From: Nannobrachium achirus
Taxonomy: Eukaryota > Chordata > Actinopteri > Myctophiformes > Myctophidae
NCBI GenBank assembly: GCA_963921795.1
Contig: OY997641.1
Location: 58,184,950-58,248,949 of the forward strand
DNA: 64,000 nt
Direction of reading: 5' to 3'
The notes under the pieces are model-generated. The model was not told the origin of the DNA and searched no databases. It saw nothing but the letters and a program-made list of their open reading frames with translations. Position numbers and translations under genes: made by a program. Within the stretch, counting starts at the first letter, position 1. Each line of letters starts with the position of its first letter. Below are positions 7,999 through 64,000 of this stretch, one piece after another.

Positions 7999-9045
7999 TT
8001 AATGCTCGGACATCGATTCGGGGCGGACAAAGAACTGTCGGAAACGTTTCGGAATGGACGGAATAAATGGGCCCGATCCCAGCTCTAGTCTGGAGTTTGT
8101 TCCCTTTTCTTGTTGCATGTTGTTGTTGTTGGTTGTCATGGCTGCCAGTTCCCACCTGATGTTGTGTGGGAGTCCAGACTGCTCCAGACCATACTGAATA
8201 ACTGCTAGCTTACATAACGTCTTCAAACTAGGATTCAATTCTAAGATGTAGAGTTCATTGTTCTTATTTGCTCGCATGAAGAGCAAAATACAATCTCCCA
8301 CCACGCAACAGTACGAGACGTGTTTCTCTAGACACTTGCCCGGACCTTTCCCCTTTATATGGGTACCTTTGCTACCAGCAAATCCGTACAGCTTTCCATT
8401 GTAGACATATTGAGTGTGTTGGAGTGTGTGAGGTATTTTCAGCCATAAGTTGGTCTCTGTGTCAAACCCAAAGTCTCCAAATACAAGAATCTTTGTCTTG
8501 ATGATCATGGCAGGGTAAGATTTTGAAAGATCTGAAACATTTGATGGGGTTCCTCTGCTGTTAATTATAGACCAGACCATTGTGCTGGTGTCCAACTTGT
8601 ACATGTCAATTACAATCGACTCTGTGAATCCTCCAAAGACATACATGACCTTCCCCAAGACACCAGCTGAGTGCCTGTGCCTCCCCTCCGGAACAGTCCC
8701 AGAAACCTCACACTTCAACCATCCATGGGTATCGACATCAAACGCATAAAGCCGGTTGCGGTAAGGGTATCCTCCCCAGATGTAGATGACATCTTCTACA
8801 AGCACAGCCGTGTATCCCCAACACATGGAAGGAACCTCAGGGGGACGTTTTCGTCCAGTCGCCACTGGAGGCAACTTTGTCCAGCACAAAGTCACCGTGT
8901 TGAAGACACAGACATTCATATGGTACTTGTTGGCCCTGTCGGACAGGCCTCCGAAGCAGTACACCTGGTGCTCCACCACAACAGCAGCATGGGCTGCCAT
9001 CGGCCCTCCTCTCTGATGAAATGTCAAGTGCAACATTCTGTACAA
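7999..9045 (-). CDS. KLHDC3-like Kelch protein, intronless (likely retrocopy)
   Basis: A 348-residue frame is uninterrupted. It resembles Kelch domain-containing protein 3, a substrate receptor of Cullin-2 ubiquitin ligases that reads C-terminal degrons. Kelch Gly-Gly doublets are intact at residues 32-33, 91-92 and 138-139, but later blades are eroded: FGD at 189-191, FAG at 222-224, FMR at 256-258. The C-terminal SLKTLCKLAVIQY (from 273) fits an Elongin-binding BC box and LPHNI (292-296) fits a Cul2 box. KLHDC3 is about 382 residues and its gene has many introns, so one exon and a shorter middle suggest a retrocopy. Translation may start at Met4 (9036), which aligns better with KLHDC3. It could be functional or a young pseudogene with no stop yet. 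Confidence 0.8.
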   Translation of the reverse strand: MYRMLHLTFHQRGGPMAAHAAVVVEHQVYCFGGLSDRANKYHMNVCVFNTVTLCWTKLPPVATGRKRPPEVPSMCWGYTAVLVEDVIYIWGGYPYRNRLYAFDVDTHGWLKCEVSGTVPEGRHRHSAGVLGKVMYVFGGFTESIVIDMYKLDTSTMVWSIINSRGTPSNVSDLSKSYPAMIIKTKILVFGDFGFDTETNLWLKIPHTLQHTQYVYNGKLYGFAGSKGTHIKGKGPGKCLEKHVSYCCVVGDCILLFMRANKNNELYILELNPSLKTLCKLAVIQYGLEQSGLPHNIRWELAAMTTNNNNMQQEKGTNSRLELGSGPFIPSIPKRFRQFFVRPESMSEH

Positions 9046-33360: not shown

Positions 33361-33886
33361 TTATAATACAAAAATGTCAACCTTCTGAACTGGGAATTGA
33401 ATTGGGGTGCTACTGTATGGCGTCTGCTTCTTTACACACTATTTTTGAAGGATCTAGTATAAACTAGGGTTAATTATGTTGGTCAAACTGATGCTCAATT
33501 TTATGTGGACCCCGCCAAGGACCCCCTGGGATTCCCCAGACCCTACTTGAGAACCCCAAAAGGGGCGAGGCTCATGGCCTGCTTTTATCACCAGACAGTA
33601 GCTATCAACCTAATAGGCAGACAAGTTACAACTATTATGATAGAACAATCTTGCCACGTGCAGAAAGGAACAGAAATCCAAATTATGTGGTTGATCTGGA
33701 AAGATGTTATTCTGTAGTTGCCAACATGAAGAAACTCCATAAATTAGCTCATACGGTGACACGAAGGGACGCCCTTGTGACTGTAAGCTTGATGATGTAA
33801 TTTGACTGGTTTCCAGTAGGCATACTTTAATTAATCTTGAGTACAACACATGCACATGGAACCAACTCTTTGAAGAAAGTGTGGGC
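33361..33886. other. No recognised gene
   Basis: Sequence downstream of the minus-strand histone-type gene. On the minus strand, just past the stem-loop, TCAAAGAGTTGG resembles the purine-rich histone downstream element that pairs with U7 snRNA. Confidence 0.4.
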
Positions 33887-33902
33887 GGCTCTTAAAAGAG
33901 CC
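33887..33902 (-). terminator. Histone 3' stem-loop for minus-strand gene
   Basis: On the minus strand the sequence is GGCTCTTTTAAGAGCC followed by GCCCACA. It is identical in all 16 bases to the stem-loops after H1, H2A and H3 in this window (6-bp stem, TTTA loop). It lies about 92 bp past the stop at 33994, with T-runs and (TA)n on plus in between, which is longer than usual and looks like microsatellite expansion. Confidence 0.9.
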
Positions 33903-33923
33903 TTTTTTTTTTTTTTTTTTTTA

Positions 33924-33955
<32 letters not shown>

Positions 33956-33993
33956 CAGTCTTTTTTTTTTTTACTTAACCCATTCGTTTTTTT

Positions 33994-34650
33994 TTAAGGT
34001 GGGGCGGGGGTGGCAATAAGGCCGGCAGCAACGATGGGGCTGGAAGGACCGGGGCCGGGACCAGGAGGCAGGGCGGGAGCAGGTCCAGGAGCAGGAGGCA
34101 GGGCGGGACCGGGCGGCGGCGGCGGGATCGGGCCGGGCGGCGGCGGCAGAACCGGGCCGGGTGGCGGGACTGGGCCGGGCGGCGGCGGCAGGACTGGGCC
34201 GGGTGGTGGCGGCAGGACCGGGCCAGGCGGCGGCAGAACCGGGCCGGGTGGCGGGACTGGGCCGGGCGGCGGCGGCGGCGGCGGCGGCGGGACGACTGGG
34301 CCGGGTAGTGGCGGGGCGGCGGCGGCGATGGCGGCCGCGTTCCTTATCTTCATCAGTGCGTTGTGGTCAGCCCAGGCTTTGGATTTCAAGGTGTGTTTGA
34401 TTGGCGGAAGACTCTGCTTCCTCGTCTTCTTTGCTTTAGCTTTAACCTTTTTCACCTTCCCCTTGGGCGCCGCCTTCTGCTGCTTGAAATGCTGCATAGC
34501 CTGTTCTTTCTCTCTATAGACCTTTGTTTCATAGTAACGCCATCTGGCTCCATACCAATTCTCAATGAGTTCATTCAACCTTTCTATACGGTGATTCGCG
34601 GGCGGCCTCACTGGCAACGGCTTCGGCACAATCAACGGCTGGAACGCCAT
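33994..34650 (-). CDS. Histone-type gene for an unrecognised basic, proline-rich protein
   Basis: A 218-residue single-exon frame starts MAFQPLIVPKPLPVRPP. Residues 21-50 form an aromatic/charged segment (LNELIENWYGARWRYYETKV) likely helical; 59-92 are very basic (APKGKVKKVKAKAKKTRKQ); 93-112 include AWADHNALMKIRN and an Ala run; 113-218 are repetitive Pro/Gly (PPPGPVLPP). It has no histone fold or H1 winged helix that I can recognise. The frame opens at 34755, but a TATAAA at 34738-34733 lies inside that extension, so the Met at 34650 is preferred, with a leader of about 55 nt. Two CCAAT boxes lie upstream and a canonical histone stem-loop downstream. By architecture it is expressed like a replication-dependent histone; by content it might be a chromatin or sperm nuclear basic protein (inference only). 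Confidence 0.65.
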   Translation of the reverse strand: MAFQPLIVPKPLPVRPPANHRIERLNELIENWYGARWRYYETKVYREKEQAMQHFKQQKAAPKGKVKKVKAKAKKTRKQSLPPIKHTLKSKAWADHNALMKIRNAAAIAAAAPPLPGPVVPPPPPPPPPGPVPPPGPVLPPPGPVLPPPPGPVLPPPPGPVPPPGPVLPPPPGPIPPPPPGPALPPAPGPAPALPPGPGPGPSSPIVAAGLIATPAPP

Positions 34651-34732
34651 CTTCTGCTCTTCTCCGATCTCCGCTGCTGCTCCAAGAAGTGTAGACGCGA
34701 TATGAGGTACCAAGCCATGAACCTGCTGAGAG

Positions 34733-34832
34733 TTTATACACCTTTTGCGGACCATAACGAGAACATATCTCTCTACGCATGCAATGATTGGTGGAGAGCA
34801 CTATACATAACTGTTGCGAGTTCTCTGATTGG
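34733..34832 (-). promoter_or_regulatory. Histone-like promoter: TATA box and two CCACCAAT boxes
   Basis: On the minus strand: CCACCAATCAGAG (CCAAT at 34832-34828), CCACCAATCATTG (34791-34787), then GTATAAAC (TATAAA at 34738-34733). The spacing of ~50 bp from CCAAT to TATA and ~83 bp from TATA to the chosen ATG is typical of vertebrate histone genes. The ATTGGTGG motif also occurs in the H2A promoter here (47467). Confidence 0.75.
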
Positions 34833-35161
34833 TGGGGAGCCGTCAGAGTCATTCTCTCGAATAAACGGTTATGAAAATGCAGCCCCCCCCCGCCCCCCTC
34901 CGTCCACGAGTTTGCAACGCCGCCTGTCCTCCCTTACGTTGTCAGTAAGCGGAGGCGGAGCTCCAAGTTTCAAATGTGTACGTTTTTTGGTAAAGCAAAG
35001 CCCTGCTTCATCTTACAAGACTGTCCCACAAAACTAGTGAAAACAGCATATAGGCAAGCGTTTCCTGTACTTTTATTACACTTATTGTTTTATAGTCGGA
35101 ACCCGGGACGCCTGGATGCAGTCATAGCGCATCCTTCAATTTCCACCAGGGAAAGAACAAA

Positions 35162-35519
<358 letters not shown>

Positions 35520-43671: not shown

Positions 43672-45830
43672 GCACACACACTTGATCTTGAATACTGTGC
43701 TACAATCCTTAAAGAAATACTCATTCTCCATCTCTTTGTCCTTAGGAGTAATGATCAAGTCCATCAATGCTCTCTGTATTAATGCCGATCAAAATAACTT
43801 TCACAATATAGAGCCATTTAACTTATTTTATCCAGATAATTAAATATCACTGTTCTCTCTGTGTGTGTGTGTGCATGCGTGCGTGTGTGCGTGCGTGGCG
43901 TGTGCGTTCCCCCAGATCTTCAGCAGCCTGCACACGGTCTGCACTTGTGTGCAGCTGGCCCTCAGCCCCTGGTTCTGCGACTGCTAGCGTTCTCGGTGAG
44001 ATCCAGCTTGTGCGCCCCATCAACACATGGACGACACCGCAGCATGGGGTGCTGCAAGTCCCCCTGCAGTCTTCCGGAGCCGGCCTCTGGCCCGCCATGG
44101 CTAGAAAGCTGTGTATGACCGGAGACACAGACTGGGCTGGCCCCACCATCGTAGCTACTGACCCAGGAACATGAATTTACCCTCATAATGATGGGCTCAC
44201 AGAAGGCTATATGTTGTAATTAACCAGCCACTGAACCCAAGCAGCACTTGGGTAAATACATAATTTAAATAAGGGAGGACAGAATACCGAAGGCAATTTG
44301 TGTGTCTATTATAGACATTATAGATATTTGATCATTTCATTTAGAACAGGCTGTATTCTTTATGTGAATATCGTAAGGAAGTGGTTCTCAAAATGTGCCT
44401 GGTGGTCCGGTGACATGCAGTGATCCTGGAGGGGTTTGTCAAGCGGCCCACAGCAAAATGAGGAACTGTTTAAAAAAAAACATTTTAAACACCTAATGAG
44501 CTACACAATATAAGCATAATTTTTCAGTTAATGTAATAATGTTACTAGGCCTGTTAAGTCTTACTGTCTGACTGGTGTTCTATTCTGCTCTGTGGGTTTT
44601 TTTGGGGCATCGTTCTCTTGTTGCTGCTGCTAAGTAAAGTTCATTGGGAAACTATGTGATGGCCTGATCATTTCACCAACATAAGGCCTACCTTTTCAGT
44701 GAATGTTTTTACTCTCAGTGAAGAGTTCTTGTTCCATTCAAATTTGATTGGAAATGGTTAAGTGCATTATATAATTATGGTATATAGCCTACATTTGTTC
44801 TGGTACATAAATGTTTGAATACTGATTTTCTTTTTAAACTTATATCAGGGGTCTTCAACAGGGGGTCCTCAGATTTACTACCGGGGGTCCTCCAAATGTT
44901 TGTGTGATAGGAACTTAAATAGGGCAATTTTAAATGTAGGCCTATCTGTTTTCTATCAATTGCTTGAAGGTTTATTGCTGCATATACAATAACAGTTAAA
45001 TAAATATGAAATATTGAATACTGCATCATGTCTCACTGTTATGTTTAGATCCTCCGTTCGATGTGTGCATCTGTTGACTAGCTTTGCCTGCCCTGTTGTG
45101 ATGCTCTGGGATCGATTGATGTACGTTTTCACACTACTGCTGTTGTTGGTGCTGCCCTGCACTTTTAAAGTTTATTAGGACGTACGTGATGGTCTGATTT
45201 TTCACAGACACAACAATGCCCCTTTTTATTAGGGTTTTTATGGTTGCGTTTTAACTGAACAGGAAAGTCTTCCATTACCAGGTGCAGCAGCCAGTAAGGA
45301 CAGCAGTTAGCAGGTAAGAATACAAACCATAGTAACATCATTTGCAAGTGTAGAATGGATGGGGTGAGAAGGGAGCGTGAGGGGAGGGGAGAAGGGGTGA
45401 CGGGAGGGAGAAGAGAGGGGGGAGGGAGAATAAGTGTCGAACCGTAGGCATTAATATCGCGCAGAGAGCGTAGATATGTCGTTGCCGCATCGCCAGCGAC
45501 GTAGCAAATGCATCTTCCCAATGAGCATCACACAGCGCTGCTGTACAGCGCGGACGTAGCGGACGTAGCGAGGTCCAATGAGGCCCATTGCGTCCAAGTC
45601 GCGCTGTCCGCCGAAGCTAAATAGGCGCGACGCCGCTGTGCTGTCTGGGCAAGAGCTTATTGAATGATCACAGTGTCCTAGTGAGGTCTAAACGTCCTAA
45701 AACAAAACTCAGGGGTCCCTAGGGCTCTACACGATCTGATTATGAAGTGAAACTACTCTGCTATCTGATCCACGTGTTGTTTCATCTTAAATAATATAAT
45801 TTGCCTGTGTTTTATTTGCTTTTAGTTGGG
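43638..45830. other. No assigned gene; one exon-like stretch
   Basis: After CCCCCAG at 43917 a segment reads IFSSLHTVCTCVQLALSPWF and ends in a stop (43985). It does not match STRIP and I cannot place it. The remainder is AT-rich; 45360-45425 is a GGGAGA-rich purine tract. Confidence 0.35.
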
Positions 45831-45834
45831 GAGA

Positions 45835-45841
45835 AAACACA
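45835..45841 (+). promoter_or_regulatory. H1 box of the H1 promoter
   Basis: AAACACA, the element shared by vertebrate H1 promoters, lies about 165 bp before the H1 start codon. A clear TATA box is not seen; CTTTAAG at 45911 is a weak candidate. Confidence 0.55.
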
Positions 45842-46000
45842 ACTGTGTCAGTATTCTGCAGCACACAGAGCACTGACCCAGTGGGTTGAGTCTACATGGT
45901 TCTCACACGTCCTTTAAGTTCCTCCCCCTGCTCTACATTCTCTATCAGTCTCACTCAGCCTTTTTTTCAGTGCGTTTGAAACTCCAACCAGAAGAGAATC

Positions 46001-46612
46001 ATGGCAGAAGTCGCCCCAGCTCCAGCCGCCGCCCCGGTCAAAGCAGCCAAGAAGAAGGCCGCCCCCCGACCCAAGAAGACCGGCCCCAGCGTCGCTGAGC
46101 TTGTCGTCAAGGCCGTGTCCGCCTCCAAGGAGCGGAGCGGTGTGTCCCTGGCTGCGGTCAAGAAAGCCCTGGCCGCCGGCGGCTACGATGTGGAGAAAAA
46201 CAAGGCCCGCGTCAAGATCGCTGTCAAGAGCCTGGTCGCTAAAGGCACTCTGGTTCAGCTCAAAGGCACCGGCGCGTCTGGCTCTTTCAAGATGAACAAG
46301 AATGCAGAAGCCGTGAAGGCGAAGAAGCCTGCTGCTAAGAAACCCGTCAAAGCAAAGAAGCCCGCTGCTGCCAAGAAACCCGAAGCGGCCAAGAAGCCCA
46401 AGAAGGCGGCAGCAAAGAAGCCCGCAGCCGCCAAGAAATCACCGAAGAAAGCCAAGAAGCCCGCTGCCAAGAAAGTAGTGGCTAAAAGCCCGAAGAAGGC
46501 CACCAAGAGCCCCAAGAAAGTGGCGAAGAAGCCCGCAGCAGACAAGAAATCTCCTGCCAAGAAGGTTGCCAAACCTAAGGCGGCAAAGAAGGCAGCCCCA
46601 AAAAAGAAGTAA
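46001..46612 (+). CDS. Linker histone H1
   Basis: 203 residues, one exon. A short Ala/Pro/Lys N-tail is followed by the winged-helix domain at about residues 26-100 ([52 protein letters not shown]) and a long Lys/Ala/Pro tail with SPKK motifs, sites of cyclin-dependent kinase phosphorylation. H1 binds linker DNA at the nucleosome entry/exit. The start is the first Met of the family-typical [10 protein letters not shown]. An H1 box upstream and a stem-loop 33 bp after the stop mark it as replication-dependent. Neighbours H2A and H3 lie on the same strand. Confidence 0.97.
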
Positions 46613-46644: not shown

Positions 46645-46660
46645 GGCTCTTTTAAGAGCC
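46645..46660 (+). terminator. Histone 3' stem-loop of H1
   Basis: GGCTCTTTTAAGAGCC followed by AACCACA. It binds SLBP and directs cleavage without polyadenylation. Confidence 0.95.
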
Positions 46661-47569: not shown

Positions 47570-47968
<399 letters not shown>

Positions 47969-48000: not shown

Positions 48001-48016
48001 GGCTCTTTTAAGAGCC
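48001..48016 (+). terminator. Histone 3' stem-loop of H2A
   Basis: GGCTCTTTTAAGAGCC followed by ACCCAC, 32 bp after the stop. Confidence 0.95.
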
Positions 48017-48502: not shown

Positions 48503-49065
<563 letters not shown>

Positions 49066-49093: not shown

Positions 49094-49109
49094 GGCTCTT
49101 TTAAGAGCC
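49094..49109 (+). terminator. Histone 3' stem-loop of H3
   Basis: GGCTCTTTTAAGAGCC followed by ACCCACC; AAAGAGCG about 18 bp on resembles the histone downstream element. Confidence 0.95.
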
Positions 49110-53384: not shown

Positions 53385-53561
53385 CAGGGGCGTCAATTGG
53401 GTATGGCAAGCTATGGCAGCTGCCATACCTTGGCTACAGGGGGGAAATAATTAAATGTACTTTTCATCGTGCCTGTTGCTAAGGTATGGCAACATGATTG
53501 GTGTCTTGCAAGACACCAGTCATGTTGCCATACCTTAGCCTTTCCTGAACTGACGCCGCTG
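53385..53561. mobile_element. 177-bp hAT-type MITE with 8-bp TSD
   Basis: The left end is CAGGGGCGTCAATTGGGTAT and the right end inverted is CAGCGGCGTCAGTTCAGGAA. TGAACATG lies on both sides (53377-53384 and 53562-53569), an 8-bp target duplication. The interior contains a hairpin centred on GGTGTCTTGCAAGACACC with GGTATGGCAACATGA arms. A truncated copy lies inverted at 58840-58987. Confidence 0.9.
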
Positions 53562-53748
53562 TGAACATGTGTACACAGCCAGCATATTACTCAATGCCAA
53601 ACTTTGCACACACACTCCTTGCCTGCCAATCCACAACCTCCACCCCTCCAGGGACCCCCAGGGCTTATCTCCCGATTAGGACACTTTCCAGCATAGTGAC
53701 ATGCAGAACAAACTGTCCATATAGTATGGTTTACATAAAAGTCAGTTG

Positions 53749-53904
<156 letters not shown>

Positions 53905-54447
53905 CATTTATTTATTTCATAAATATTTTTCATCACAATTGGGTTTGTGGAGAGCCATCCCTGCTTCAAGCTGTCACAGCACGGCACCAACACTTCAAAC
54001 TAGTTAAAAAACCCAATACAGCAGATCTACAAGCACCTCACAGATCTACAAGCACCTCGCACATGCCAGGGACAGAGTAGGTTGGCCTGCATAAGCCTTG
54101 CTGTCAACACACCAAGCCAGGTGTGGTCAATTAGTGCCTTCTTTTGATCAGTGGCTTCTGCTTGATGAGTGGCACCAGTCTGTCTTTGTTCCCTGGTCAG
54201 TCAAGTTCACTGGGAGAGAATGTTTCAGATCAGTGCAAGTGTATTTGTTTTCCATTTGGACTTACTGTGTTTTGTTGGTACAGTATGCGTGCGACTAACT
54301 AATATTTCTGATAATTCCAATTTGTTTGTTGTTTAATTAGCCGGATTGTGAATGCCCTGCATTTTTCTTTCATCTTTAGAACCACACGTGTGTAACAAAA
54401 CAGAGTGGTGATCATTTGGTGTGGGTGAAGAGAAGAAAAACATTTCA

Positions 54448-54560
54448 TTAAAGGAGTAGTTCACCCCCAAAGTGACTTTTTTTCTATTGAACTCAAGTCT
54501 CCATGGCGTGAGTAATACATTGAAAAAATAAGTCATTTTGGGGGTGAACTACTCCTTGAA
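54448..54560. mobile_element. Short TTAA MITE (Angel-like)
   Basis: TTAAAGGAGTAGTTCACCCC at the left and its inverted form (GGGGTGAACTACTCCTTGAA) at the right, about 113 bp. The motif resembles the short inverted-repeat 'Angel' elements of fish (from memory). Mirror copy at about 57853-57965. Confidence 0.75.
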
Positions 54561-54605
54561 TGTCAGTTTTGTGGTGTTTTGACTGGACACCCTGAGGATA
54601 TTGCC

Positions 54606-54607
<2 letters not shown>

Positions 54608-54664
<57 letters not shown>
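54608..54664. repeat. (CAGA)n microsatellite
   Basis: About 14 units; the mirror copy at 57764-57798 has fewer. Confidence 0.95.
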
Positions 54665-54793
54665 GAATTGTAGGCCTTGCATTTATTTGACTTGGTTCCA
54701 ACAGATGGCGAAAATAGCTAATCTTCAAGCTCACAATGCCTCACTGTTTGGACAAAGAGTTGAGGCGTTACATTTTGTAAAACACGGCCTTGT

Positions 54794-54868
54794 GAAAATA
54801 GCAGATCTACATGCTCACAAAACCTCACAACGCAGGGCGGCGTGAGCATGTAGATCTGATATTTTCAC
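54794..54868. repeat. Hairpin family P element
   Basis: GTGAAAATAGCAGATCTACA, TGCTCAC...CCTCACAACGC and GTGAGCATGTAGATCTGATA. A half-site precedes at 54712-54735. Mirror copies lie at 57557-57640 and 57690-57715 in the other arm. Confidence 0.85.
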
Positions 54869-55828
54869 AATTTCTGCCCCTAATATTTAATTTATAATTT
54901 TAAAAGTATTAAAAAGTCCTTAAATTGTCTCTTTAGAAATGTGCAGATAGCCTCTGTATACTGTTGAGTGGAAAAACAATGTTTCACATTAAGCTAAACA
55001 TTTGGGACCACCCAAGATCATTTGGAGACCCCTCTAGGGGTCCCATAGTTGAACCACTGACTTATAAGGGGAGTATGGAGACCCCTCTAGGGGTCCCATA
55101 GTTGAACCACTGACTTATAAGGGGAGTATATGAGGCTGGATCCGTCTGGAACACTGCACTAGGCTCTCGCCAGCTCTGTAGCTCTCCAAACTTGAACAGT
55201 TGTGTCCTTAAATTCAATTATAATAATTAACCCCTGTATATACGGGCAATAGTTTTACATGACTTTGTGTACACAGCCAATAGTTTTACATGAACATGTC
55301 TAGGCTTTAGTACTGTACTGCCTCGTATAGCCCAACAGAGCCCAGCACAGAACAGCACAGCCCACCAGAGCCCAATACAGCCCCCCAGAGCCCAACAGAG
55401 TCCAGCAAACCTAAGTCCAGCCCAGTCCTGCCGAGTAGGAGTATAGACCGGGGAAAGGGGGTAGTTAGATGACTCCACCAGGCCATTACTGTCCAGATCT
55501 GGCTTGAATAGGCCAGACCAGGGTAGACAGGACTGCACCAGACTCCACCAGGCTGCTCCAGCCAGCTCTGTAGATCCTTGCACATGCGATTAACCACTGT
55601 GTACACGGGCAATAGTTTTAAGTTTTACATGAACCCTCAGAGGGACACTGTGGGCTTATCAAGTGGTCCATGGCCGGTTCTCAAAGTGAGGTCGGGGGGC
55701 CCACAGTGTCCCTCTGAGGGGACACGGCACAGACCATGTACACGAAGGGCAGGAGCAAGTGTTCAAGTCCCATAGAATCTATGGGAAATGTACACAGGCG
55801 TGTACAAAGTCACCAGTAGTTTTACATG

Positions 55829-56019
55829 AACCCTCAGAGGGACACTGTGGGCTTATCAAGTGGTCCATGGTCGGTTCTCAAAGTGAGGTCGAGGGACCCT
55901 CAGAGGGACACCGTGGGCTTATCAAGTGGTCCATGGTCGGTTCTCAAAGTGAGATCGGGGGACCCTCAGAGGGACACTGTGGGCTTATCAAGTGGTCCAT
56001 GGTCGGTTCTCAAAGTGAG
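55829..56019. repeat. 65-66-bp minisatellite, left arm (3 units)
   Basis: Units of CCCTCAGAGGGACACTGTGG + CTTATCAAGTGGTCCATGG + TCGGTTCTCAAAGTGAGG. A single unit is also at about 55630. The right arm (56303-56600) has about five units, so copy number differs between the arms. Confidence 0.9.
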
Positions 56020-56302
56020 GCACATCCTCAAAGTCCCTCCTTCCCAAACAGACGAACCAACCAAGGGTGCACAAGGCAGCGGTGTGCGATGGACTAGAAA
56101 TATCCATTTAAAACTATTGGTCATGTACACACAAACTAAGGCTCCTGTACACAGTGTTTGGTCTCAATTGTGTGAGCAGCTAAAGGGCAGACAACGGCCT
56201 AGAACAACCTAATGGTGCCTATTAAGACTCTAGTACACCCTTTGGCCTCGACAAGCCTGATCATCCTACTATAGCTAGTACCCCCCTCACCAACTTTGTG
56301 CT
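56020..56302. other. Unique spacer at centre of inverted repeat
   Basis: About 280 bp not shared between arms, apart from a short TAAAACTATTGGTCATGTACAC motif akin to the array at 61426-64000. No gene seen. Confidence 0.6.
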
Positions 56303-58987
<2,685 letters not shown>

Positions 58988-59689: not shown

Positions 59690-61425
59690 CTATCCCATCT
59701 CCGTGATTTGTAGATCTAACTTTACAGACAGTTCATTTCTATGATTTGTATATCTAATTCCAAAACCAGTCCCATCCCCATGATTTGTAGATCTAATTCC
59801 ATCAGCAGTTCCATACCATGATTTGTAGCTCTAAATCCATCACCTGTCACATCCACATGATTTGTAGATCTAATTCTAAAACCAGTCACATCCACATGAT
59901 TTGTAGATCTAATTCTAAAACCATTCACATCAACATGATTTGTAGATCTAATCCATACCATAATTTGTAGCTCTAAATCTATCACCTGTCACATCCACAT
60001 GATTTGTAGATCTAATTCTAAAACTAGTCGCATCCCCATGATTTGTAGATCTAATTCCATCGGCAGTTCCATACCATAATTTGTAGCTCTAAATCCATCA
60101 CCTGTCACATCCACATGATTTGTAGATCTAATTCTAAAACCAGTCACATCCACATGATTTGTAGATCTAATTCTAAAACCATTCACATCCCCATGATTTG
60201 TAGATCTAATTCCATCGGCAGTTCCATACCATAATTTGTAGCTCTAAATCCATCACCTGTCACATCCACATGATTTGTAGATCTAATTCTAAAACCAGTC
60301 ACATCCACATGATTTGTAGATCTAATTCTAAAACCATTCACATCCACATGATTTGTAGATCTAATCCATACCATAATTTGTAGCTCTAAATCTATCACCT
60401 GTCACATCCACATGATTTGTAGATCTAATTCTAAAACTAGTCGCATCCCCATGATTTGTAGATCTAATTCCATCGGCAGTTCCATAGCATAATTTGTAGC
60501 TCTAAATCTATCACCTGTCAAATCCACATGATTTGTAGATCTAATTCTAAAACTAGTCGCATCCCCATGATTTGTAGATCTAATTCCATCGGCAGTTCCA
60601 TACCATAATTTGTAGCTCTAAATCCATCACCTGTCACATCCACATGATTTGTAGATCTAATTCTAAAACCAGTCACATCCACATGATTTGTAGATCTAAT
60701 TCTAAAACCATTCACATCCCCATGATTTGTAGATCTAATTCCATCGGCAGTTCCATACCATAATTTGTAGCTCTAAATCCATCACCTGTCACATCCACAT
60801 GATTTGTAGATCTAATTCTAAAACCAGTCACATCCACATGATTTGTAGATCTAATTCTAAAACCATTCACATCCACATGATTTGTAGATCTAATCCATAC
60901 CATAATTTGTAGCTCTAAATCTATCACCTGTCACATCCACATGATTTGTAGATCTAATTCTAAAACTAGTCGCATCCCCATGATTTGTAGATCTAATTCC
61001 ATCGGCAGTTCCATAGCATAATTTGTAGCTCTAAATCTATCACCTGTCAAATCCACATTATTTGTAGATCTAATTCTAAAACCAGTCCCATCCCCATGAT
61101 TTGTAGATCTAAATCCAACGGCAGTTCCATACCATAATTTGTAGCCCTAAATCCATCACTTGTCACATCCACATTCTAGATCTAATTCTAAAATCAGTCA
61201 CATCCACATGATTTGTAGATCTAATTCTAAAACCATTCCAATCCCCATGATTTGTAGATCTAATCCATACCATAATTTGTAGCTCTAAATCTATCACCTG
61301 TCACATCCACATGATTTGTAGATCTAATTCTAAAACTAGTCGCATCCCCATGATTTGTAGATCTAATTCCATTGGCAGTTCCATACCATAATTTGTAGCT
61401 CTAAATCTATCACCTGTCACAAAGG
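59690..61425. repeat. ~39-bp satellite in a 529-bp higher-order repeat
   Basis: The monomer is ATGATTTGTAGATCTAATTC + TAAAACCAGTCACATCCAC (39 bp), with a variant carrying CCATCGGCAGTTCCATACC and another with ATAATTTGTAGCTCTAAATC. The pattern of variants repeats every 529 bp (for example 60183 to 60712, and 59989 to 60518). Minus-strand open frames are produced by the repeat. Confidence 0.95.
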
Positions 61426-64000
61426 CTCTGGTGGGCTGTTTTGGGCTCTGGTGGGCTGTGCTGGGCTCTGGTAGGCTATACAGGGCAGTACTGTACTAGC
61501 CTAGACATGTTCATGTAAAACTATTGGCCGTGTACACTAAGGAATGTAGAAACTATTGCCTGTGTACACAGTGGATAATCCCATCAACGAGGAGCTACAG
61601 GACTGGCGGGAGCCTTGAGCAGACTGCTGGAGTCTGGTGCAGTCCTGTGCACCCTGGTCTGGCCTATTCCAGCCGGATCCAGCCTAGTGTAGCCTAGTGA
61701 AGCCATCTAACCTCTCCACTTCCCTAATCTATTCTCCCACTGTGCTGGACTTGGATGTGCTGGGCTGTGCTGGACTCTATCAGGCTCTGGTGAGCTGTTT
61801 TGGGCTCTGGTGGGCTGTGCTGGGCTCTGGTAGGCAATACAGGGCAGTACTGTACTATAGCCTAGACATGTTCATGTAAAACTATTGGCCGTGTACACTA
61901 AGGCATGTAGAAACTATTGCCCGTGTACACAGTGGATAATCCCATCAACGAGGAGCTACAGGACTGGCGGGAGCCTTGAGCAGCCCGGTGGAGACTGCTG
62001 GAGTCTGGTGCAGTCCTGTGCACCCTGGTCTGGCCTATTCCAGCCGGATCCAGCCTACTGTAGCCTAGTGAAGCCATCTAACTTCTCCACTTCCCTAATC
62101 TATTCTCCCACTGTGCTGGACTTGGATGTGCTGGGCTGTGCTGGACTCTATCAGGCTCTGGTGGGCTGTTTTGGGCTCTGGTGGGCTGTGCTGGGCTCTG
62201 GTAGGCTATACAGGGCAGTAATCTACTATAGCCCAGGCATGTTCATGTAAAACTATTGGCCGTGTACACAAAGGCATGTAGAAACTATTGCCCGTGTACA
62301 CAGTGGATAATCCCATCAACGAGGAGGTAAGGGACTGGCGGGAGCCTTGAGCAGCCCGGTGGACACTGCTGGAGTCTGGTGCAGTCCTGTGCACCCTGGT
62401 CTGGCCTATTCCAGCCGGATCCAGCCTACTGTAGCCTAGTGAAGCCATCTAACTTCTCCACTTCCCTAATCTATTCTCCCACTGTGCTGGACTTGGATGT
62501 GCTGGGCTGTGCTGGACTCTATCAGGCTCTGGTGGGCTGTGCTGGGCTCTGGTAGGCTATACAGGGCAGTAATCTACTATAGCCTAGGCATGTTCATGTA
62601 AAACCATTGGCCGTGTACACAAAGGCATGTAGAAACTATTGCCCGTGTACACAGTGGATAATCCCATCAACGAGGAGCTAAGGGACTGGCGGGAGCCTTG
62701 AGCAGCCCGGTGGACACTGCTGGAGTCTGGTGCAGTCCTGTGCACCCTGGTCTGGCCTATTCCAGCCGGATCCAGCCTACTGTAGCCTAGTGAAGCTATC
62801 TAACTTCTCCACTTCCCTAATCTATTCTCCCACTGTGCTGGACTTGGATGTGCTGGGCTGTGCTGGACTCTATCAGGCTCTGGTGGGCTGTGCTGGGCTC
62901 TGGTAGGCTATACAGGGCAGTAATCTACTATAGCCTAGGCATGTTCATGTAAAACTATTGGCCGTGTACACAAAGGCATGTAGAAACTATTGCCCGTGTA
63001 CACAGTGGATAATCCCATCAACGAGGAGCTAAGGGACTGGCGGGAGCCTTGAGCAGCCCGGTGGACACTGCTGGAGTCTGGTGCAGTCCTGTGCACCCTG
63101 GTCTGGCCTATTCCAGCCGGATCCAGCCTACTGTAGCCTAGTGAAGCCATCTAACTTATCCACTTCCCTAATCTATTCTCCCACTGTGCTGGACTTGGAT
63201 GTGCTGGGCTGTGCTGGACTCTATCAGGCTCTGGTGGGCTGTTTTGGGCTCTGGTGGGCTGTGCTGGGCTCTGGTAGGCTATAGAGGGCAGTACTGTACT
63301 ATAGCCTAGGCATGTTCATGTAAAACTATTGGCCGTGTACACTAAGGCATGTAGAAACTATTGCCCGTGTACACAGTGGATAATCCCATCAACAAGGAGC
63401 TACAGGACTGGCGGGAGCCTTGAGCAGACTGCTGGTCTGGCCTATTCCAGCCGGATCCAGCCTAGTGTAGCCTAGTGAAGCCATCTAACCTCTCCACTTC
63501 CCTAATCTATTCTCCCACTGTGCTGGACTTGGATGTGCTGGGCTGTGCTGGACTATTGGGCTCTGGTGGGCTTTACTGGGCTCTGATATACAAGGCAGTA
63601 CTCTACTAAAGTCTAAACATGTTCATGTAAAACTATTGGCCGTGTACACAAAGTCATATAGAAACTATTGCCTTTGTACACAGTGGTTAATCCCATGAAC
63701 GAGGAGCTACAGTGCTGGTGGGAGCCTGCAGCAGCCTGATGGAGACTGGTGGAGTCTGGTGCAGTCTGGTGCACCCTGGTCTGGCCTATTCCAGCCTAGT
63801 GTAGCGTAGTGAAGTCACATAACTACCCCACTTCCCTAGGCTATTCTCCTGCTGGGCAGGAATAGGCTGGACTTAGGTGTGCTGCACTCTATTGGACTCT
63901 GGTGGGCTGTGCTGTGTTGTGCTGGGCTCTGTTGGGCTATATGAGGCAGTACAGTACTAAAGCCTAGACATGTTCATGTAAAACTATTGGCCGTGTACAC
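61426..64000. repeat. 351-371-bp tandem array, at least seven units, runs off window
   Basis: CATGTTCATGTAAAAC occurs at 61506, 61867, 62238, 62589, 62940, 63311, 63618 and 63969, giving spacings 361, 371, 351, 351, 371, 307 and 351. The 371/351 difference equals one extra GGGCTCTGGTGGGCTGTTTT block. Each unit holds TATTGGCCGTGTACAC and a CTGGGCT/GGTGGGCT-rich part. A diverged unit also lies inside both arms of the inverted repeat (about 55227-55620 and 56810-57200). Confidence 0.95.

Follow-up and report, generated by a model that had tools for sequence, protein, structure and literature searches.

A 64,000-nucleotide stretch of the Nannobrachium achirus genome (hereafter the window) carries, on its minus strand, an intronless ORF of 218 codons surrounded by the elements of a replication-dependent histone gene. 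Read from the sequence, the minus-strand order is two CCACCAAT boxes, TATAAA, a leader, the ORF, a stem-loop and CAAAGAG (Table 1). The original prediction had listed the boxes, the TATA element, a leader (~55 nt), one exon, the stem-loop and a downstream element, all of which are present on that strand. The ORF begins with ATG at 34650, in the strong context AAGATGG, and ends with TAA (33996-33994). Its stem-loop is covered by a match to Rfam RF00032 (Histone3; 33862-33907, 35.8 bits versus a gathering score of 34), and the predicted identity of the 16-mer with those after H1 (46645), H2A (48001) and H3 (49094) of the window was confirmed. CAAAGAG and an H4-like flank point to a purine-rich downstream element ~15-20 nt past the stem-loop, and no AATAAA occurs between the ORF and the stem-loop. 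On DNA alone, the orphan gene would be a single exon with a CCAAT/TATA promoter, and a histone-gene architecture around its ORF can be regarded as certain.

Table 1. Features of the orphan gene and of neighboring histone genes (window coordinates)
Feature	Position	Strand	Basis
CCACCAAT box, distal	34828..34835	-	Sequence
CCACCAAT box, proximal	34787..34794	-	Sequence
TATAAA box	34733..34738	-	Sequence
Putative 5' leader, ~57 nt	34651..34708	-	Start placed ~30 nt past TATA
Single-exon ORF, 218 aa, pI 10.6	33994..34650	-	ORF list, sequence
Non-repetitive part, residues 1-112	34315..34650	-	Sequence and single-sequence structure model
Pro/Gly-rich tail, residues 113-218	33997..34314	-	Sequence
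A/T-rich spacer, stop to stem-loop, 91 nt	33903..33993	-	Sequence
Histone stem-loop GGCTCTTTTAAGAGCC	33887..33902	-	Rfam and sequence
CAAAGAG, core of histone downstream element	33866..33872	-	Sequence
H4-type 3' flank, 85% over 80 nt versus H4 genes L073, L074	33830..33905	-	Alignment
H2A-promoter-like region, 80% identity over 106 nt versus L065 (opposite orientation)	34785..34890	-	Alignment
Dispersed repeat between orphan gene and H2B remnant	34961..35059		Repeat match
H2B pseudogene (GTG for ATG, frame shift, TGA)	35162..35519	+	Sequence comparison
Intact, perfect stem-loop of H2B pseudogene, 40.5 bits	35546..35561	+	Rfam and sequence
Histone H1, stem-loop at 46645	46001..46612	+	ORF list, Rfam
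Histone H2A, stem-loop at 48001	47585..47968	+	ORF list, Rfam
Histone H3, stem-loop at 49094	48655..49065	+	ORF list, Rfam

At 91 nt, the spacing from stop codon to stem-loop is long. In histone genes the stem-loop mostly lies ~27-38 nt past the end of the histone match, and families B-E, described below, have 26-49 nt; a long spacing is also found at one H4 gene (L081, 77 nt). The 3' UTR of the orphan gene carries A-rich and TA-repeat insertions, and an A-rich tract abuts the stem-loop at the start of the H4 homology.

The orphan gene faces a broken H2B gene, a neighbor absent from the original prediction, as are the H4-type 3' end and the further cassettes described below. Rfam locates four further stem-loops in the window, after this H2B remnant, H1, H2A and H3. 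All 13 of the other GCCCA-tailed stem-loops among the genome pattern matches listed, with upstream DNA fetched for each, follow an H4 ORF or remnant (13/13), and the case that the 3' end of the orphan gene is of H4 type appears strong. One alternative raised in the original prediction, replacement of the body of a histone gene, gains support from this 3' flank. An H4 chassis is seen in that flank but not in the TATA box and leader: the stretch 34785-34651 has no blastn match (E ≤ 0.01) to the fetched histone loci, H4 included. The H2A-promoter-like region also gives shorter matches to L042 and L067.

Elsewhere in the window, an inverted duplication (53423-58987; 2.6 kb, 96% identity) surrounds a tandem repeat, and long direct repeats, about 76-95% identical, fill the right end (59700-64000). 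An intronless Kelch-like ORF of 345 aa on the minus strand (7999-9036) is retrocopy-like; we take its parent to be a KLHDC3-like gene.

The non-repetitive part of the orphan protein is basic (pI 10.6, charge +18.8). A structure model from the single sequence, of low confidence (pLDDT 70, pTM 0.28), consists of helices only, with a predicted long helix at residues 18-59, a Lys-rich stretch at ~61-78 and a further predicted helix at 88-110. The tail comprises 61 Pro and 14 Gly residues, and every spacing between its repeat copies is a multiple of 3 nt. The product had been described as no recognizable histone, and neither Pfam nor hhalign against 14 H1s detected a histone fold or GH1 domain in it. 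Pfam and NCBIfam returned sub-threshold matches only, a PDB search by sequence nothing credible, and the public protein collection no match at E ≤ 1, in a search that relies on shared 5-residue words and that unannotated ORFs escape. The window H1 returned 1817 relatives from the same collection (E ≤ 1e-10), mostly named fish proteins among the 120 listed, and the absence of a public match for the orphan protein is therefore meaningful. A lack of orthologues had been named beforehand as telling against the original prediction, and it is what this collection gave, to the extent that such a word-based search can detect them. The 1.66 Gb genome contains no second copy of the coding part (protein E ≤ 0.001; DNA E ≤ 1).

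Of 2000 dinucleotide shuffles of the 336-nt non-repetitive part, 0.6% keep its own frame open and 2% have any frame open. GC content by codon position in this part (0.50/0.40/0.66) is graded like that of the window histones. One antisense frame of this part also lacks stops, and a 161-aa antisense ORF overlaps the orphan ORF. A perfect stem-loop alone is no proof of a gene, because the dead H2B and the H4 copies L076 and L077 keep theirs; in both H4 copies no ATG-started ORF precedes the stem-loop, and the tblastn H4 match begins only at residue 22 or 12. Two further stem-loops, L006 and L007, have no remaining ORF. We place the chances that the orphan ORF is a working gene at about even.

Since dead histone genes here retain perfect stem-loops, a neutral relic has to be taken seriously as an alternative to a histone-gene chassis carrying foreign cargo. 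The H4 body would have been lost at a decaying H4/H2B pair, leaving an ORF that is open by chance and by compositional bias (the GC-rich Pro/Gly repeat). Such decay would accommodate the partner H2B, dead yet with a 40.5-bit stem-loop, the 3' UTR insertions and the stem-loops without an ORF at L006 and L007, but it sits poorly with the low probability of an open frame in the shuffles (0.006, or 0.02 for any frame) and with GC values that are coding-like by codon position. The open antisense frame and the single copy without homologue again agree with a relic, against which stand a start codon in strong context, its distance from TATA being histone-like, and the repeat spacings that preserve the frame. 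On balance, we consider a relic possible, though its probability falls clearly below even. It is improbable that a retrocopy or foreign exon lies in an H4 gene and is expressed, if at all, from its own polyadenylated or spliced transcript: the position of the A-rich tract, right against the stem-loop where H4 homology begins, would be as expected, but no parent gene is found in the genome at the protein or DNA level, no AATAAA separates ORF and stem-loop, and there is no target-site duplication of more than 7 nt.

Searching the 1.66 Gb genome for the stem-loop pattern plus tail, GGCTCTTTTAAGAGCCRMCNA, yields 363 places, against none for the reversed control, a result that chance does not explain. 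The fetched DNA, a biased sample, contains 171 distinct stem-loops, 167 of them with at least 350 nt upstream, and the tallied DNA covers at most 143 of the 363 pattern places (overlaps counted twice). For 150 of the 167, tblastn (E ≤ 1e-3) places a histone match on the same strand no more than 700 nt upstream (H2A 61, H3 36, H2B 33, H4 16, H1 4). Another 14 are preceded by a non-histone ORF longer than 60 aa that ends within 100 nt, and three by neither; 14/167 is no unbiased rate, because some stem-loops (14 further ones) were chosen by eye from the pattern list for odd tails or spacing. The 14 non-histone cases are the orphan gene, B (L057, L058), C (L003, L004, L005, L008, L026), D (L096-L099), E (L102) and L101, and all 14 lie on contig C4, which holds 94 of the 171 stem-loops; contig C5, with 63 of the 171, has none.

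Besides the orphan gene, five kinds of short ORF that encode no histone (79-125 aa), B to F, stand directly before a perfect stem-loop on the same chromosome. Family B (C4:53865800 and 53876500; 79 aa) lies next to H4 in divergent orientation and has two CCAAT boxes, TATAAAA, 26 nt from stop to stem-loop and a histone 3' end; its protein has no match in the public protein collection at E ≤ 1. Family C (90-100 aa) includes L003, in which the family frame is disrupted, and L004, L008 and L026, whose mutual ties are shared flanks and 24-31% protein identity. Counting its own place, the DNA upstream of C has 40 scored genome matches, and the matches identified as H1 lie upstream of the window H1 (45679-45905) and of the H1 in L054; in two cassette kinds the upstream DNA resembles that of H1. 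Where matches to the C upstream DNA reach position 302 or beyond at unexplored places, a non-histone ORF and then a stem-loop follow in three of three: L103, of the C family (86 aa from the first ATG), and L104 and L105, of the new family F.

Family D consists of four copies (C4:55546200-55560300; 105-122 aa) with the stem-loop 32 nt past the stop; CCACCAAT and TATAAAA are seen in L096 and L097. The single E cassette (C4:58178610-58179500), ~5 kb to the left of the window, contains an 83-aa orphan ORF followed by two stem-loops in tandem, one imperfect and one perfect. Its 327 nt of upstream DNA is 84% identical (354 columns) to the upstream region of the H3 gene L045, and a 183-column piece, 87% identical to the promoter of the window H3, ends ~30 nt short of the E start codon; what this H3-like promoter and the stem-loop enclose is an ORF other than H3. 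Family F (L104-L108; C4:59293750-59499920) has 102-125-aa ORFs before stem-loops and five matches in the genome, three of them in tandem ~1.77 kb apart. Of two further tandem copies, L107 is intact and L106 lacks a stop and reads on across the stem-loop; L108 is broken, with no stem-loop within the fetched piece. At the sequence level, these arrangements give good support to a set of putative non-histone ORFs in the histone cassettes of this genome. At L101 (C4:57785440-57786300), an ORF with zinc-knuckle-like motifs precedes a stem-loop whose flank shows kinship with the one at L102; we regard this ORF as decayed, and it is perhaps a retroelement fragment.

Within family C, dN and dS values are 0.74 and 0.67 for L004/L008, 0.77 and 0.87 for L004/L026, 0.95 and 1.00 for L008/L026, and 0.23 and 0.23 for L026/L103; in family F, L104/L105 gives dN 0.35 and dS 0.25 (p 0.18). 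The resulting ratios for C and F, about 0.9-1.4, fit either fast adaptive change or weak constraint. Non-synonymous and synonymous changes number 5.5 and 0.5 in the D pair L096/L097, 1 and 0 in L004/L005, and 0 and 2 in L057/L058, the sole B pair. In simulations of substitution without selection, the probability that neither sequence of a pair acquired a stop was ~0.015 for L004/L008, 0.10 for L104/L105 and 0.16 for L026/L103, so that coding constraint is supported for L004/L008 only. Upstream identity (78-90% in C pairs, 93% in L104/L105) lies far above coding identity, which suggests that promoter DNA has been exchanged between cassettes. Among recent copies the pattern is inverted: L105 and L106 are identical in their coding part and 93% identical upstream, and L096/L097 are 92% identical upstream.

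We tested relatedness among the cassette proteins by leaving a family out of the profile and scoring it against 1000 shuffles of its sequence. The score was reached by 0/1000 shuffles for left-out B and E, by 1 and 2/1000 for F, by 0 and 0/1000 for L026 and L103 when these two C sequences were left out, and by 4 and 36/1000 for L004 and L008 when those two were. With all four C sequences left out, L026 and L103 remained at 0 and 0, and L004 and L008 rose to 71 and 206/1000. On these scores B, C, E and F look related to one another. Family D (34/1000) does not rise clearly above its shuffles, and the H1 globular domain is borderline against the family profile (9/1000; above 991/1000). Comparison of B-F with PDB profiles gave E values of 0.31 and worse, with helix-turn-helix proteins mixed with unrelated ones, and hhalign of B-F against H1 was not significant; a winged-helix fold for B-F, read by eye, is a guess. 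Membership of the orphan protein in B/C/E/F, thought possible by eye, was rejected, as its profile score of -0.2 is reached by 316/1000 shuffles. Least probable of all is that the orphan protein is a very diverged B/C/E/F member or linker histone H1, since the shared locus class and a by-eye likeness of LNELI..ARW to the ALLSK..MKW motif are set against that profile score (with B and E at 0/1000 when left out), hhalign comparisons with H1 and with the family profile, neither of which finds anything, and a single-sequence model predicting helices only.

We propose instead that foreign cargo occupies a histone-gene chassis at this locus. An H4/H2B pair would have lost its H4 body, and another ORF would have been brought under H4 control. 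The gene would be transcribed in S phase at the histone locus body, and its transcript would undergo U7/SLBP-type cleavage, bear no poly(A) tail and decay as S phase ends, so that a lysine-rich nuclear protein would be made in a pulse. Residues 1-112 may bind DNA or chromatin, with the Pro/Gly tail as an extended spacer. The orphan gene would then be one of a set on the chromosome, the others encoding small, mostly fast-changing proteins. The architecture, the H4-type 3' end, the openness of the ORF, its coding-like GC and the repeat spacings in threes argue for this proposal, as do the independent cases of the same arrangement: B next to H4, E in an H3 chassis, and C, D and F. The lack of a homologue or second copy, the open antisense frame, stem-loops on dead genes, the 91-nt spacing and a TATA/leader unmatched among the fetched histone loci argue against it. 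We judge the proposal in full to be evenly poised between true and false, and the interpretation given in the original prediction is, overall, partly supported.

The orphan gene shares with replication-dependent histone genes (RF00032 3' end, U7/SLBP) an intronless ORF, CCAAT/TATA elements, a stem-loop with downstream element and a histone locus. It differs from them in a product that is no recognizable histone and in its 91-nt stop-to-stem-loop spacing, and its comparison with them is made at the level of the genome sequence. Sperm nuclear basic proteins and H1-like spermatid proteins are basic and fast-changing; with these properties and plausible chromatin binding they may offer a likeness, although no sequence link of the orphan protein to either was found. 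Germline histone variants of mammals retain the histone fold, whereas none was detected in the orphan protein. Those fast-evolving variants (short H2A and H2B variants; PMC8857922) likewise represent histone-derived loci giving rise to rapidly changing proteins.

Human non-histone mRNAs without poly(A) exist, e.g. ZNF460 and SESN3, and the accessible part of the report mentions no histone stem-loop for them (PMC3188798). Replication-dependent histone genes are described as the only known source of tail-less mRNAs that terminate in the conserved hairpin (PMC1924863). A stem-loop gene carrying a different cargo is absent from the accessible portions of PMC3188798, PMC3156773 and PMC8212874, and no such non-histone cassette is reported in the titles and abstract beginnings returned by searches of the open literature, a scope outside which subscription papers fall. 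The further non-histone cassettes on the chromosome are new here.

If true, non-histone genes in histone cassettes would be natural cargo swaps with which to test where the system depends on a histone product, and such a gene set would show that new genes can arise from histone loci. More broadly, and with a likelihood that we set somewhat short of even, H1-, H3- and H4-type cassettes on one chromosome may repeatedly have been given mostly fast-changing non-histone cargo (six kinds, some in tandem). S-phase-limited, tail-less expression would then extend beyond histones, and the histone locus would be a nursery of orphan chromatin proteins, perhaps engaged in germline conflict.
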